Positions 6,819 to 43,308 of a stretch of DNA of 51,255 bases are shown one piece after another. The translations under genes and the position numbers were made by a program. Source of the DNA: Candidatus Saccharimonadota bacterium (lineage in GTDB: Bacteria > Patescibacteriota > Saccharimonadia > Saccharimonadales > UBA4665); assembly GCA_027371825.1 (NCBI GenBank), contig DAHXLE010000011.1, positions 1-51,255 on the forward strand, given 5' to 3'. Position 1 is the first letter of the stretch. Each line of letters opens with the position of its first letter. A model generated the notes under the pieces. The model searched no databases. It saw only the letters and a list, made by a program, of their open reading frames with translations, and was not told the DNA's origin.

Positions 6819-7040
6819 ATGATTCAGAGTGTTCAAAAAGTCATAAAGATCGGGACCAGTGTAGGTGTTACCATTCCCGCCAAAGAGCTAAAGCGACAAA
6901 ATATTGCAGTTAGCGATGAGGTCGAGGTTATAGTTCGTCCGCTTCACAATACAACAGCCGCTGATCAGGCTGTCATAAATACTGCTAAAAAAATCTTATC
7001 TACCTATAAAAAAGATTTTACTAGTCTAGCAAAAAGATGA
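6819..7040 (+). CDS. AbrB/MazE-like antitoxin
   Basis: VQKVIKIGTSVGVTIPAKELKRQNIAVSDEVEVIVRP; TTGACA-N18-TATAAT promoter upstream; overlaps the Doc-like ORF. Confidence 0.85.
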   Translation: MIQSVQKVIKIGTSVGVTIPAKELKRQNIAVSDEVEVIVRPLHNTTAADQAVINTAKKILSTYKKDFTSLAKR

Positions 7041-7414
7041 CTACGTTAACACTAGAGCAACTACTAGAGCTTCATGCTTTAGTGGTTAAGGTCAGCGGCG
7101 GCAATATGGGCCTACGCGATCTAGGTAGGCTAGAGGCGGCAATTGCAACGCAAACCCAAAACGTTTTTGGTGAAGAACTTTACCCAGCATTAACAGATAA
7201 AGCTGCAGCAATGATCAGAGCAATCATTGCCGATCATCCATTTGTAGACGGTAATAAAAGAACAGCAATGCTGGCAGGCTTAACTTTGCTCCAGCTAAAT
7301 AGCTTCACCTTTTTTGCAAACATGGGCGAGATCGAAGATTTAGCAGTAAAAACAGTAACCAAGCATATTGACGTGCCCAATCTTTCGAAATGGCTCAGAT
7401 TACACAATAATTAA
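7037..7414 (+). CDS. doc: Death-on-curing (Doc/Fic) family toxin
   Basis: Fic-type motif HPFVDGNKRTA; 4-bp overlap with the upstream AbrB-like antitoxin. Confidence 0.9.
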   Translation: MTTLTLEQLLELHALVVKVSGGNMGLRDLGRLEAAIATQTQNVFGEELYPALTDKAAAMIRAIIADHPFVDGNKRTAMLAGLTLLQLNSFTFFANMGEIEDLAVKTVTKHIDVPNLSKWLRLHNN

Positions 7415-7581: not shown

Positions 7582-8238
7582 GTGCTACCTAAAGCTAAAA
7601 AAACGGTATACTTTGTTCGACATGGACAAAGCATGGATAATGCCTCTCCGGTGTTTCAGTCACATCTATCACCATTGAGTGTTAAGGGCCAAAAACAAGC
7701 CGAGCTAATCGCCAATCGAGTTTCAAAAATTACATTTGGAAGCATTATAGCGAGCCCTTTACCTCGAGCTGCTCAAACTGCACAAGCACTAGCGGATAAA
7801 ACCAAAAAACCAATACAGTTTTCGGATTTATTTATAGAGCGCATTAAACCTGCTTCGATTGACGGTAAACCTTGGAACGATAGCAAAGCTATTAAAACAT
7901 GGCATAACTGGGAAGAAAGCCTATATAATCCTGAGTTGCGCATAGAAGATGGCGAAAATTACGATGACATAGTAAAACGCGCCGACAACGCCCTTCAATA
8001 TCTATTGGACCATAGCGAGCGATCAATCGTTGTTGTATCGCATGGCTATTTTATACGGACTATTATATCCAGAGTACTTCTTGGCGATCAATTAAACAGT
8101 AGCGTATTATTTAAAATCCAGAGGGTAGCTTCCATGGAAAATACTGCTATTAGCGTTATACAGTATAGAGATGCTTTTGAAGAGAATGATTGTTGGCGCT
8201 TATGGACCTACAATGACCATTCCCACTTTGCGGATTAG
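7582..8238 (+). CDS. Histidine phosphatase family (phosphoglycerate mutase-like) protein
   Basis: VYFVRHGQSMDNASPVF...IIASPLPRAAQTAQALA...VVVSHGYFIRTI; GTG start. Confidence 0.88.
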   Translation: MLPKAKKTVYFVRHGQSMDNASPVFQSHLSPLSVKGQKQAELIANRVSKITFGSIIASPLPRAAQTAQALADKTKKPIQFSDLFIERIKPASIDGKPWNDSKAIKTWHNWEESLYNPELRIEDGENYDDIVKRADNALQYLLDHSERSIVVVSHGYFIRTIISRVLLGDQLNSSVLFKIQRVASMENTAISVIQYRDAFEENDCWRLWTYNDHSHFAD

Positions 8239-37120: not shown

Positions 37121-39487
37121 TTAGGATCTTGACAGAGATTCCTCAGTCTTTAGGGTAGCTATGGTTGTTTTTATGACCGTATCGGGAGCTAACGACATGC
37201 TGTCTATGCCACATTCTACCAGAAAACGGGCAAACTGAGGATAATCAGAGGGTGCCTGACCGCAGAGTCCAACCTTAGTATGTGTCTTCTTGCCGACTTT
37301 TATGACCCTTTCGATCAGTTCCTTGACGGCCTGATTATTTTCATTGTAAACGTGTGCAACCATCTGATTATCTCTATCTACTCCTAGGGTTAATTGCGTA
37401 AGGTCATTTGAGCCGATTGAGAAACCGTCAAATAACTCTGAGAACTGTTCAGCCAGTATGACATTGCTAGGGATCTCGATCATGACATAAACTTCAAAAC
37501 CATTTTCGCCCCTCTTCAAACCTGCCTGACGCATTATATCGAGTACTTTTTTAGCTTCTTCCAGGTCCCGACAAAAGGGAATCATGGCTTTTACATTAAC
37601 AATGCCCATGTCATCACGAACTCTTTTCATAGCACGACACTCTAGTTCAAAGGCTTCTCTATACGCCGGTGAATAGTAGCGGGAGGCTCCTCGCCAGCCT
37701 ATCATAGGATTATCTTCCTTGGGCTCAAATTGTGATCCGCCGATTAAATTGGCATACTCATTAGTCTTAAAATCACTAAACCGTATAATTACATCCTTCG
37801 GGTAGAATGCTGCACCTATAGTGGCAATTCCTTCCGCAAGCTTGTCTACAAAGTAATCGGCTTTGTTTTTATATCCTCGCGTTAGCTGATCGATCTGAGA
37901 CCTAGCATCTTGATCGGTAAGTTTATCGAAATGCAGTAACGCCAAAGGGTGAATCTTGATATGAGAGTTTATGATGAACTCTTCTCTGGCCAGACCAACA
38001 CCATCGTTGGGTATCATTGAGTACTGAAATGCTAGATCGGGAGATCCGACGTTCATCATTATCTTAGTCTTCGGCCTGGTCAAATTCTTAATGTCCGTAC
38101 GCTTAACATCGAAGTTTAAGAGACCTTTGTAAACCGTACCTTCATCGCCTTCCGAACAACTAACCGTGACACTTTCATTGTCAGTAAGTTTATCGCTTCC
38201 GTCGGACGTACCGACAACACAAGGGATACCCAACTCACGGGATACTATAGCGGCATGACAGGTTCGTCCCCCCTTGTCTGTTACGATTGCGCTGGAACGT
38301 TGCATGATAGGAACCCAATCCGGATCAGTCATTTCAGTAACCAGAACATCACCGTCTTTAAAGTCACTAATATTTTTTATGTCCATGATTTTTTTGACTC
38401 GACCGCCACCGATTTTATTGCCAACGCTTGTCCCTTTGGTGATAATCGGGCCACTCTCAAGGAGCTTATACTCCTCGACAACATTGGGATTCTTGCGGGA
38501 GGCTACCGTCTCGGCACGAGCCTGGACAATGTATAATTTATTATCGTCCGCATCAAGAGCCCACTCCATATCCATAGGTTTTTCGTAATGTTTCTCGATC
38601 TCCATTCCCCATTTTGCTAGAGTCAATACCTGCTCGTCAGTTATAGCAAATTTGTCTTGATCCTCTACCGACACGGGAATATTTTTTGTGCGATTACCGA
38701 ATGTAGGAATCATTTTCATTTTTTTTGCGCCGACTCGTCGCCTTAGAATAGCCATGGTCGGTTTAAACACTACGAATTCGTCCGGACTAACTCTTCCCTG
38801 CACTATGTTCTCGCCAAGCCCGTAAATAGAAGTCACTATAACGGCATTACGAAAACCCGACTCTGTATCAATCGTAAACATTATACCGGCTGCCTTGGCT
38901 CTCACTGCAACCATTTGCTGTATGCCAACCGATAAAGCTACCTTCATATGATCAAAGTGGTTCTCGATCCTGTAAACAATAGCCCGATCGGTAAAAAGAG
39001 AAGCTATGCATTTCTTGGTAGCTTTTAGTACGCTCTTTTCGCCCTTTATATTTAAGTAGGTTTCCTGTTGACCGGCAAAAGAGGCGTTTGGCAAATCTTC
39101 GGCTGTGGCTGATGATCTTATTGCAACTACCAGCTTATCGTGACCACATATTTTGCTAAGTTCTTTATATCCTCGAATAATCTCCGACTCCAAGTCCTTC
39201 GGCAATTTAGATTTTATAATTAAAGCTCGGATCTTGGCTGCTCTAACCGCCAAGTCCTTGACATCTTTTATTTTGACATCACTCAATAATTCTTTGATCG
39301 CCTGATTAATGCCGGCTTTTTCCATAAAATAGTAGTAAGCACTCGAGGTTGTAGCGAATCCGTTGGGAAGATTTATTCCTTTAGGCGCTAAATACTGGTA
39401 CATCTCTCCAAGCGATGCATTTTTACCTCCTACCTCCGGTACATCAGAAATAGAAACTTCTTTGAAGAATTTTATATAGTTATACAT
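37121..39487 (-). CDS. ppsA: Phosphoenolpyruvate synthase
   Basis: VGGKNASLGEMYQYL, AIRSSATAEDLPNASFAGQQETYLN, IVTDKGGRTCHAAIVSRELGIPCVVGT, VGLAREEFIINSHI, FSIGSNDLTQLTLGVDRDN, VGLCGQAPSDYP. Confidence 0.97.
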   Translation of the reverse strand: MYNYIKFFKEVSISDVPEVGGKNASLGEMYQYLAPKGINLPNGFATTSSAYYYFMEKAGINQAIKELLSDVKIKDVKDLAVRAAKIRALIIKSKLPKDLESEIIRGYKELSKICGHDKLVVAIRSSATAEDLPNASFAGQQETYLNIKGEKSVLKATKKCIASLFTDRAIVYRIENHFDHMKVALSVGIQQMVAVRAKAAGIMFTIDTESGFRNAVIVTSIYGLGENIVQGRVSPDEFVVFKPTMAILRRRVGAKKMKMIPTFGNRTKNIPVSVEDQDKFAITDEQVLTLAKWGMEIEKHYEKPMDMEWALDADDNKLYIVQARAETVASRKNPNVVEEYKLLESGPIITKGTSVGNKIGGGRVKKIMDIKNISDFKDGDVLVTEMTDPDWVPIMQRSSAIVTDKGGRTCHAAIVSRELGIPCVVGTSDGSDKLTDNESVTVSCSEGDEGTVYKGLLNFDVKRTDIKNLTRPKTKIMMNVGSPDLAFQYSMIPNDGVGLAREEFIINSHIKIHPLALLHFDKLTDQDARSQIDQLTRGYKNKADYFVDKLAEGIATIGAAFYPKDVIIRFSDFKTNEYANLIGGSQFEPKEDNPMIGWRGASRYYSPAYREAFELECRAMKRVRDDMGIVNVKAMIPFCRDLEEAKKVLDIMRQAGLKRGENGFEVYVMIEIPSNVILAEQFSELFDGFSIGSNDLTQLTLGVDRDNQMVAHVYNENNQAVKELIERVIKVGKKTHTKVGLCGQAPSDYPQFARFLVECGIDSMSLAPDTVIKTTIATLKTEESLSRS

Positions 39488-39708
39488 TATTGTGGCCTTT
39501 TATTTATATTTTTTTACGACCCTTATTATACTCGCTTAAGCCTATTAATGCCACCGTGCAAACCATCAGAAGTCTACATGCGCCCGTTCGACACCGTATT
39601 TATAAACAGGATACTCGGAGCATGGCCACATATTAACCAATACCCTTAAAGAACATTATTTTTGATCATATAATCGGTTTGGATCGATGTTATACTAAAG
39701 TAAGATTT

Positions 39709-40323
39709 ATGAACGATAAAATACAAAGTGTCGGGTCCTGGCTGGGCAAAGGATCTCTCAACCTATTTGGAAGACCATTCTCCGGAAAAGATACCCAAGC
39801 CGATATTCTGGCCGCATTGCTAAACGGCAAAGTAATCGGCGGAGGCGAGATACTGCGCAGTCAGACAGACGTACCTAAAGATATTAGTCAGACCTACGAC
39901 AGCGGCGATCTAGCTCCATCAAATTTTTATTTAAAAGAAGTAACCCCGTATCTCTCCCGGCCTGAATATAACTCATGCCCCCTAATTCTCAGCTCCCTAG
40001 GAAGGATGCACGGAGAGGAAGCATCTATTTTAAAAGCAGCAGATGATTCACATCACCCAATCAAGGGGGTCATATACTTAAAGATTGACGAAGATTTAGT
40101 CTGGGAAAGATTTAGATCGGCTAAACAAATAAAAGACCGCGGGCAAAGAGCCGATGACACCGATGAAGCATTAAAGCTAAGGTTGGAAAAATTCAGAACC
40201 GAGACATTGCCGGTCATAGAATATTACAGAAATCTAGGTATACTGCACGAGATAGACGGGTCTTTGTCGGTTCAAGCGGTCACTCAAGAAATAATTGAGA
40301 CGTTATTTCACGCTCTTGTCTGA
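39709..40323 (+). CDS. Adenylate kinase-like nucleoside monophosphate kinase
   Basis: P-loop LFGRPFSGKDTQADIL, GGGEILR, RADDTDEALKLRLEKFRTETLPVIEYYR; start refined to ATG 39709. Confidence 0.85.
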   Translation: MNDKIQSVGSWLGKGSLNLFGRPFSGKDTQADILAALLNGKVIGGGEILRSQTDVPKDISQTYDSGDLAPSNFYLKEVTPYLSRPEYNSCPLILSSLGRMHGEEASILKAADDSHHPIKGVIYLKIDEDLVWERFRSAKQIKDRGQRADDTDEALKLRLEKFRTETLPVIEYYRNLGILHEIDGSLSVQAVTQEIIETLFHALV

Positions 40324-41979
40324 TGTTATAGGATCGGCGGAATCAATGTGTTGAACAAAGCAGCTTTTTGACAATCCCTCATCGGTCAGATCGTAGACTT
40401 TGATATCACCGAAGGGCATCTCAATCTTACATATGTCCTCGTCGCTTATGGATTCCAGATACTTAGTAAGCGCTCTGATGCTATTACCGTGAGCTACAAT
40501 CAAAACATTCTTACCGGCTTTTAATTGAGGCCAAACTGTTTGCTTATAAAAAGGGACGCACCGCTCATAAACGTCTTTGAGTGTCTCGCCGCCTTTTATC
40601 GGTACATCCCAACCTCGACGAATATTATTAAACGCTTCTTCACCGATCTGCTCTTTGACTTCCCATTTATTCTTGCCGGTAAACTCACCATAGTCTCTCT
40701 CATTAATGGCGGCATTGGCCTCTGTTTCGACATTAAATAATTGTGCTGAATCAAGTAACGCTTCGAGGGTCTCTCTGGTTCTAACTTGTTGTGAACAATA
40801 AGCCTTGTCAACGGAGAGTCCGATTTTTTTGAGCTCTCTTCCTAAATCTGCCGATTCTCTAAAGCCTTTTTCGCTCAGATGCACGTCGGTTATACCGGTC
40901 CACCTTCCGGTAGCGTTATATTCACTCTCGGCATGTCGAATCACGATAAGTTTACCTATTCCCGTTCGAGCCGGCTCTACTTTGTTCGGGATATTGTTAT
41001 TCCAGAAATCCGTAATATTTTGAACCGTTATGTTGTTGATTCGTTCCAGTGCCTCGGTAGTGTTAAAAGCATTGTGCGGACTTAATATCACATTGGGCAT
41101 GTGCTGCAGCATAGATATCTCAACGCTGTGGTTCAAAACCTCTTGAGGTAGGCTGTCGCTTCTTAAGAGTATCGTTTCTTCGTGATAGTTCAACAAAGCC
41201 TCTCCTTCTACTACATCAATAGCGGCTCCGGCAAGATGGCCGTTGTCGAGTAGCTGCGTCAGGGCGTTTGTCTCGACCAGCTCACCGCGTGCGGTGTTAA
41301 TCAGAATGGACTTATCCTTCATTTTGTTAAGCCGTTCCCTGTTTAGTATATGGTGAGTAGCGGGCATATACGGCAGGTGGATAGAGACAACATCAGACGT
41401 TTCAAGCAAGTCTTCCAGCGGTAGATATTGAAAATTATATTCCGATTCAAGCTCTTTTTTCGGGAATGCATCATAAGCCACTACATGCATCGAAAATCCG
41501 TTAGCAATTTTAATGACGTTAACCCCTATGTGCCCGGTTCCGATTACTCCAATGGTTCGTCCTATAAGATCGTGCCCCATTAACTCCTCGGTTGTAAATT
41601 CTTCTTGCTGGGCTTTTATGACAGCCGGTAACTTTCTAGTCAGAGCCAGTAGAAGAGTAAACGTATATTCGGCAACCGTTGCTTCCCCGTAGGTCGGCAC
41701 GTTAACAACCGTAACTCCGTGATCGCCGGCCGCTGCAAGATCAACATTGTTAAACCCGGTAGAGCGGCATGCTATCAATTTTAGTTTAGGCATGGTCTCG
41801 ATCACTTCACGGCTGACATTACTAGATATAAACACAGAAATAACCTCAGCTTCTGGGTCAGTATTATCGGTATTTATTTTATCCGGGATATATTCCCAGT
41901 GATGATCTGTTTGAGATAGCGCGCTGCTTAGCTGCTTCTTGTCCAGTTCGGTAGAGTCATAAAAATATATCAGAGCCAT
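40303..41979 (-). CDS. Fusion: N-terminal D-2-hydroxyacid (D-lactate-type) dehydrogenase and C-terminal phosphoglycerate mutase (dPGM-type)
   Basis: N-terminal VGVIGTGHIGVNVIKIANGF-type Rossmann region (GRTIGVIGTGHIG), LINTARGELVE, NVILSPHNAFNT; C-terminal LIVIRHAESEYNATGRWTGITDVHLSEKG, INERDYGEFTGKNK, VLIVAHGNSIRAL in one uninterrupted frame. Confidence 0.92.
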   Translation of the reverse strand: MALIYFYDSTELDKKQLSSALSQTDHHWEYIPDKINTDNTDPEAEVISVFISSNVSREVIETMPKLKLIACRSTGFNNVDLAAAGDHGVTVVNVPTYGEATVAEYTFTLLLALTRKLPAVIKAQQEEFTTEELMGHDLIGRTIGVIGTGHIGVNVIKIANGFSMHVVAYDAFPKKELESEYNFQYLPLEDLLETSDVVSIHLPYMPATHHILNRERLNKMKDKSILINTARGELVETNALTQLLDNGHLAGAAIDVVEGEALLNYHEETILLRSDSLPQEVLNHSVEISMLQHMPNVILSPHNAFNTTEALERINNITVQNITDFWNNNIPNKVEPARTGIGKLIVIRHAESEYNATGRWTGITDVHLSEKGFRESADLGRELKKIGLSVDKAYCSQQVRTRETLEALLDSAQLFNVETEANAAINERDYGEFTGKNKWEVKEQIGEEAFNNIRRGWDVPIKGGETLKDVYERCVPFYKQTVWPQLKAGKNVLIVAHGNSIRALTKYLESISDEDICKIEMPFGDIKVYDLTDEGLSKSCFVQHIDSADPITSDKSVK

Positions 41980-42045
41980 TTACGTCTACAGATTATAACC
42001 CCGTCTATGTAAAAAGCACAAGAAGTATGAGACAATAACGATGAT

Positions 42046-43308
42046 ATGAAAATAGCCTCAATAACAGCTAGACAGATTTTAGATTCAAGGGGCGAGCCGA
42101 CTATTGAGGCCGATGTATGGTTGGACAACGGAATTTTTGGACGAGCAGCAGTTCCGGCCGGGGCATCAACCGGTACGCACGAGGCAATAGAATTACGCGA
42201 TGGTGAAGAGGCTTATAACGGAAAGGGAGTCACCAAAGCAATCTCCAATGTTCAGGGAGAAATACTAGCCTGCCTTAAGGGCGTGGCAGCCGACGATCAG
42301 TTTTTAGTAGATCAAAAACTTATTGATCTTGACGGCACTGCCAACAAGTCACGATTGGGCGCTAATGCCATACTGGCCGTATCATTAGCAGCAGCCAGGG
42401 CGGCAGCTAATGCAAGGGGGGTGCTCTTCTATGTTCACATCGCAGATATTGCATCCAACCAGCATAAGTCATTACCTCTTCCTATGATGAATGTTCTAAA
42501 CGGTGGACGACACGCCAGCAACTCTGCGGACCTTCAGGAGTTCATGTTAATTCCCGTTTCCGCAAAAACTTATGCCGAAGCAGTAAAAATCGGAGCGGAA
42601 ATATTCCAGTCCCTTAAGAGCGAAATTGGCTCCAGCGGAAACACAACAACAGTCGGCGATGAAGGCGGTTTTACGTACCCGGTTTCTAAAAATACCGACA
42701 TGTTGGATCTTCTTACTCGCGCTACTACAACCGCCGGTTATCGTCCCGGAGAAGACGTATGCTACGCCATTGACGCTGCCGCCTCAGAGTTCTATCATGA
42801 CGGAATCTACGATCTAAAGAAAGAACAACGTCAGCTTAATCCTCAACAGATGATAGATTATTTGACGGATATATCAAACCAATACCCCTTGCGTTCTATT
42901 GAAGACGGGCTTGCAGAGGATTCGTGGGAGGATTGGGTAACCATGACAAACGATCTCGGGCATCTGCAACTTGTCGGTGATGATCTTTTGGTTACAAACC
43001 CACAACGACTACAAAAGGCAATTAACATGAAAGCAGCCAATGCAATTTTAATAAAATTGAATCAGATTGGCACGCTAACAGAGACCATTAAGACCATTAA
43101 GCTTGCCAAAGCAAACGGCTGGAGGACGATAGTTTCACACCGCAGCGGGGAGACGGAAGATGTGAGTATCGCACATTTGGCAGTAGGAACAGGAGCTGAT
43201 CAAATTAAAACCGGCAGCTTATCAAGAAGCGAGCGAACCGCTAAACATAACGAGCTTATGCGTATAGAAGAAGCCGATCGATCGCTGGTCTTAGCTCATC
43301 CTCTCTAG
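42046..43308 (+). CDS. eno: Enolase
   Basis: ITARQILDSRGEPTIEADVWL, GAIL-type AILAVSLAAARAAA, GDEGGFTYPVS, SIEDGLAEDSWEDW, ILIKLNQIGTLTETI, SHRSGETED. Confidence 0.98.
   Translation: MKIASITARQILDSRGEPTIEADVWLDNGIFGRAAVPAGASTGTHEAIELRDGEEAYNGKGVTKAISNVQGEILACLKGVAADDQFLVDQKLIDLDGTANKSRLGANAILAVSLAAARAAANARGVLFYVHIADIASNQHKSLPLPMMNVLNGGRHASNSADLQEFMLIPVSAKTYAEAVKIGAEIFQSLKSEIGSSGNTTTVGDEGGFTYPVSKNTDMLDLLTRATTTAGYRPGEDVCYAIDAAASEFYHDGIYDLKKEQRQLNPQQMIDYLTDISNQYPLRSIEDGLAEDSWEDWVTMTNDLGHLQLVGDDLLVTNPQRLQKAINMKAANAILIKLNQIGTLTETIKTIKLAKANGWRTIVSHRSGETEDVSIAHLAVGTGADQIKTGSLSRSERTAKHNELMRIEEADRSLVLAHPL

Follow-up and report, generated by a model that had tools for sequence, protein, structure and literature searches.

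A predicted bifunctional D-lactate dehydrogenase–phosphoglycerate mutase fusion in Saccharibacteria

Glycolytic fusions and the saccharibacterial locus

To our knowledge, the glycolytic enzyme fusions known so far mostly join consecutive steps. TPI-GAPDH and PGDH-PSAT fusions have been described from stramenopiles, where channelling or co-regulation was proposed (PMC5715807). The gene described here likewise carries two enzymes of central metabolism on one chain, however the stramenopile partners are consecutive whereas here enolase and pyruvate kinase (PK) intervene between a D-lactate dehydrogenase (D-LDH) and a 2,3-BPG-dependent phosphoglycerate mutase (dPGM). The closest separate enzymes are the fermentative D-LDHs of the LdhA type (PDB 5z20, 5z1z, 3kb6), which share with the fusion both Pfam domains, the catalytic Arg, Glu and His, the C-terminal insert and the best fold matches; the fusion differs in bearing a C-terminal dPGM, has 33% identity to Escherichia coli LdhA and stays below the equivalog cut-offs. 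Its other half resembles the short form of dPGM (TIGR01258; PDB 1fzt) in all catalytic residues, the NERxYG motif and a 1fzt-like length, but is tethered to the D-LDH and thus has no free N-terminus. As for the physiology, a Saccharibacteria genome paper infers conversion of pyruvate to D-lactate by D-LDH with recycling of NAD+ (PMC6031116), and D-LDH is listed as a trait of the oral clade G6, not G1 (PMC8386444). Literature searches found no published description of a D-LDH–dPGM fusion; a sequence-only reading of the locus had not regarded it as a standard enzyme architecture. It is a real and conserved domain architecture, apparently undescribed, built of two ordinary enzymes.

The locus lies in a 51,255-nt stretch of Candidatus Saccharimonadota DNA (contig DAHXLE010000011.1, assembly GCA_027371825.1), which was analysed as a whole and is termed the window. 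Its genome is 71% complete, and absences from it (e.g., of PK) carry little weight. The features are as follows.

37121..39487, minus strand (that of the fusion): phosphoenolpyruvate (PEP) synthase, TIGR01418 at 1132 bits; a neighbour conserved in many relatives
39679..40323, plus strand: adenylate-kinase-like gene, PF00406 at E 7e-16, convergent with the fusion and overlapping its 3′ end by 21 bp
40303..41979, minus strand: D-LDH–dPGM fusion ORF, 558 aa with ATG start, one unbroken frame, identified by Pfam and colinear in 14 other genomes
40345..40956, minus strand: 2,3-BPG-dependent phosphoglycerate mutase domain, residues 342–545, assigned by Pfam, TIGR01258 and GpmA alignment
40957..40974, minus strand: linker, residues 336–341, about 6 aa, without internal start codon
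40975..41979, minus strand: D-2-hydroxyacid (D-lactate-type) dehydrogenase domain, residues 1–335, assigned by Pfam, alignment with E. coli LdhA, SerA and GhrB, and fold search
42046..43308, plus strand: enolase, TIGR01060 at 560 bits, divergent from the fusion across a 66-bp gap

Pfam places 2-Hacid_dh at residues 31–332 (E 1e-28), 2-Hacid_dh_C at 107–304 (E 8e-52) and His_Phos_1 at 344–535 (E 1e-36), all far over the gathering cut-offs, and the same architecture recurs in the 14 other genomes. The D-LDH half ends with PNKV (about residue 334) and the PGM half opens with GKLIVIRH at G342. These results agree with the sequence-only reading, which had described a single uninterrupted 558-aa frame in which a D-LDH-type dehydrogenase and a dPGM, each complete, meet near residue 340, divergent from enolase and with PEP synthase close by. 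The adenylate-kinase-like gene, which is also conserved in two other loci (L057, L058), lies between the fusion and PEP synthase. Translation of a free PGM from an internal start was rejected, as the window copy has no in-frame ATG, GTG or TTG from 20 codons before to 3 codons after G342. An AlphaFold model of the fusion reached a pLDDT of 85.7 with a pTM of 0.49, at which the domain orientation is unreliable.

We consider it quite likely that the fusion is a bifunctional fermentation enzyme of Saccharibacteria, having both activities, making D-lactate from pyruvate, fixing the co-production of its two halves and originating through stop-codon loss. The C-terminal dPGM would interconvert 3-phosphoglycerate (3PG) and 2-phosphoglycerate (2PG) via phospho-His349, and the N-terminal domain would convert pyruvate and NADH into D-lactate, with R231 holding the carboxylate and H302/E260 giving the proton, a reaction that would restore the NAD+ spent by GAPDH. 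From the sequence we infer the enzyme activities, pyruvate as substrate, the NAD preference and the benefit. The main benefit probably lies in making two lower-glycolysis activities, encoded beside enolase, in a fixed 1:1 ratio and assembling them together, rather than in passing an intermediate from one site to the other. Since enolase and PK stand between the two reactions, neither site acts on what the other produces; direct channelling is therefore unlikely, and we prefer stoichiometric co-production and co-assembly. The earlier claim of a physical link between 3PG-to-2PG conversion and the re-oxidation of NADH stands as anatomy, but a coupling by channelling is improbable for reactions that are not consecutive.

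Distribution, mutase half and origin

The search covered 380 genomes sampled over the whole phylum and 393 from the class Saccharimonadia (Ca. Saccharibacteria). The full fusion was found in 15 of them, the window's included, all of the same class and spread over at least four families; none occurs outside the class in the 380-genome phylum sample. Since only about 4% of the sampled class genomes are carriers, any benefit would be lineage-specific or slight. The other 14 copies are colinear with the window copy at 45–64% identity, and a sixteenth carrier (G543) holds a fusion cut by a contig end. The carriers are tiny and probably host-dependent Saccharibacteria. Many relatives are thus fused, though most of the class is not, contrary to the possibility raised beforehand that relatives always encode separate proteins. 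Candidates discarded as carriers were G132, where a GhrB/PGDH-like dehydrogenase has an ORF of its own and the PGM is fused to PK; G534, whose long frame merely comprises adjacent PEP synthase, dehydrogenase and enolase genes; and a Bathyarchaeota MAG (L085), in which the genes lie side by side without being joined.

The PGM half passes the dPGM model TIGR01258 (171 bits against a cut-off of 81.7), and R348, H349, R400, E427 and H497 are invariant in all 15 fusions. H349, R400, E427 and H497 align with E. coli GpmA H11, R62, E89 and H184, which we take to be the phospho-His, Arg, Glu and second His of the GpmA active site. It differs from GpmA in being a short dPGM, missing a segment of about 25 residues, and is by these features a complete dPGM with predicted mutase activity. 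The near-identical copies of G303 and G520 give a dN/dS of 0.035 in the dehydrogenase and 0.017 in the PGM, which shows purifying selection on each half; the sequence evidence says that both are functional.

In unfused sisters the dehydrogenase and PGM genes are separate and either overlap, by 1, 4 or 8 nt (G555, G507, G295), or are simply adjacent (G560). In the dehydrogenase tree two of the fused copies have unfused partners, G639 being paired with G560 and G067 with G507. A constraint placing the fused copies in one clade was rejected with the dehydrogenase (p-AU 3e-5) and, though weakly, with the PGM (p-AU 0.024). The fusion thus probably arose from neighbouring genes more than once, although the present sample does not separate repeated fusion from fission and gene transfer. 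We suppose that a stop codon was lost between adjacent, overlapping genes, probably on more than one occasion.

Such an origin could also be neutral, a by-product of stop-codon loss in a compact genome that leaves two working enzymes on a tether without benefit. This is the leading alternative for why the fusion exists, and one to be taken seriously even if we lean against it. It fits the overlaps of 1–8 nt in the sisters, the patchy distribution and possible reversals, but less well the retention of the fusion in at least four families at the identities given above, the constant short linker, the absence of an internal start codon from most copies and the more than one apparent origin. Neutral and co-production readings agree on both activities.

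Gene neighbourhood and other dPGM fusions

Enolase adjoins the fusion in 14 of the 15 carriers of the genome set, the exception being G639, where enolase lies beside a second, separate dPGM; PEP synthase or PK is often near the fusion as well. dPGM appears, from sequence, to be a recurrent fusion partner in Patescibacteria. A PGM-PK fusion of 484 aa lies beside enolase in G132 (L007:2329-3783), where a single stop codon separates it from an upstream dehydrogenase that shares its frame, and a PK-PGM fusion of 480 aa lies beside enolase in G366 (L157:1891-3333), a member of the same patescibacterial family. These resemble the D-LDH fusion in joining the same dPGM family to a downstream glycolytic enzyme beside enolase, but their partner is PK, in either order, and they represent a separate event. 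In addition, a Nudix–dPGM fusion of 392 aa, Nudix first, was found in G253 of the Saccharimonadales (L144:1567-2745).

The neighbouring genes and the two orders of the dPGM–PK fusion would suit a tether that organises a lower-glycolysis assembly with enolase and PK, coupling the 3PG-to-lactate flux kinetically. We regard this putative assembly as rather unlikely: two steps part the fused reactions, and the Nudix–dPGM fusion does not fit. A broader version is similarly unlikely, in which dPGM would be a repeatedly recruited tether in Patescibacteria, its separate fusions to D-LDH, to PK in both orders and to Nudix giving rise to a minimal metabolon of lower glycolysis centred on enolase in very small genomes, with LDH-PGM tuning 3PG-to-lactate flux against NAD+ recycling. 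The D-LDH–dPGM fusion joins non-consecutive steps, apparently has more than one origin and persists in reduced genomes, including one from a human oral lineage; it can therefore serve as a natural test of what keeps enzyme fusions in place, be it channelling, stoichiometry or gene economy.

Elsewhere in Patescibacteria (L081, L082, L101, L125, L133, L156), D-LDH is encoded in tight clusters together with PEP synthase, enolase or both; the ends of the genes often overlap, and in L156 the gene order equals that of the window. Such clusters suggest an old lower-glycolysis operon.

A sigma-70 promoter scan of 40200-42200 returned nothing at its threshold. By eye, and below that threshold, the intergenic region 41980-42045 holds TTGTGC-18 nt-TATAAT directed toward the fusion and ending about a dozen nt before the ATG, which would yield a nearly leaderless transcript. 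The window encodes one more histidine phosphatase (7582-8238, plus strand), which was considered as the real PGM and rejected, being CobC/phosphatase-like and not dPGM. Shortly before it lies a 125-aa ORF (7037-7414) that looks Fic/Doc-like by eye only (HPFVDGNKRTA).

Dehydrogenase half, metabolic setting and further carriers

R231, E260 and H302 are invariant in all 15 fusions and align with R235, E264 and H296 of E. coli LdhA, presumably its catalytic Arg, Glu and His. In the alignment, the C-terminal insert that follows E260, the VPxYGExTVAE segment and HNAFNT are closer to LdhA than to SerA or GhrB. The best 30 PDB fold matches of the AlphaFold model are all D-LDH or D-LDH-like and include ternary complexes with oxamate, a pyruvate mimic, and in the dehydrogenase tree LdhA groups with the fused dehydrogenases, apart from SerA and GhrB (99/98, on long branches). 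The dehydrogenase half is accordingly assigned, by sequence and model, as D-lactate-type and not phosphoglycerate-dehydrogenase-type, with predicted activity.

If the domain were instead a 3PG (or hydroxypyruvate) dehydrogenase, 3PG would be common to both halves at the serine branch and the pairing with a PGM would make biochemical sense. Profile scores lie close together, as the phosphoglycerate dehydrogenase (PGDH) model TIGR01327 gives 201 bits (equivalog cut-off 454) and the VanH-type D-LDH model vanH_gen 215 bits (cut-off 540). A further D-LDH model, PRK08605.1, gives 158 bits (cut-off 356), and both of these D-LDH models are narrow. The best single phmmer match is even a PGDH, Pyrococcus horikoshii 1wwk, at 190 bits against 188.5 for the D-LDH 3kb6. 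However, the good alignment with 1wwk stops at residue 267, while matches to D-LDH continue through the C-terminal insert to the end, and Pfam finds no ACT (regulatory C-terminal) domain in the fusion. Together with the insert, motifs, fold matches and tree, this leaves a PGDH very improbable, and likewise disfavours a 3PG-derived 2-hydroxyacid as the substrate, which had been offered initially as an alternative to D-lactate formation. Because the curated NCBIfam equivalog cut-off is reached for no specific dehydrogenase, the pyruvate specificity of the preferred D-LDH remains a prediction.

In each of the 15 carriers no D-2-hydroxyacid dehydrogenase is a stronger match than the fused domain, and the L-LDH family is absent from 13 of them, making the fused D-LDH the only evident LDH in most carriers. 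PK is encoded by 14 of the 15 and frequently lies only a few kb away. PF01676 (iPGM/aPGM) was not found in any of 19 genomes (15 fused and four with adjacent genes), a search whose control was positive in 13 of 14. G123 and G515 encode no His_Phos_1 protein and no PGM candidate other than the fusion, while some carriers, e.g., G448 and G639, have an additional separate dPGM besides the fused one. Pathway tools that assign one function per gene can miss PGM or LDH in these genomes, in which the fusion may be the sole source of both.

A pattern scan of GTDB contigs added named carriers: Ca. Saccharibacteria UBA1050, HKST-UBA54 and LH_M92; Go_SlAct_bin_486 of the same group, cut by a contig end; TM7 oral taxon 348 (HOT-348) SAG2; the “Patescibacteria” MAG Prado157; and the bog_1339 MAG, whose Kaiserbacteria label is doubtful. 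An assembly artefact, in which a stop or start was missed at the junction, has a negligible chance and can be excluded because the same junction recurs in 14 other whole genomes, including the single-contig genome G067, and in these named GenBank records, and nothing was found in its favour. A close relative of the window fusion, L057:6001-7659 (JALOQO010000001.1), has one in-frame stop near codon 29, either a sequencing error or the mark of a broken copy.
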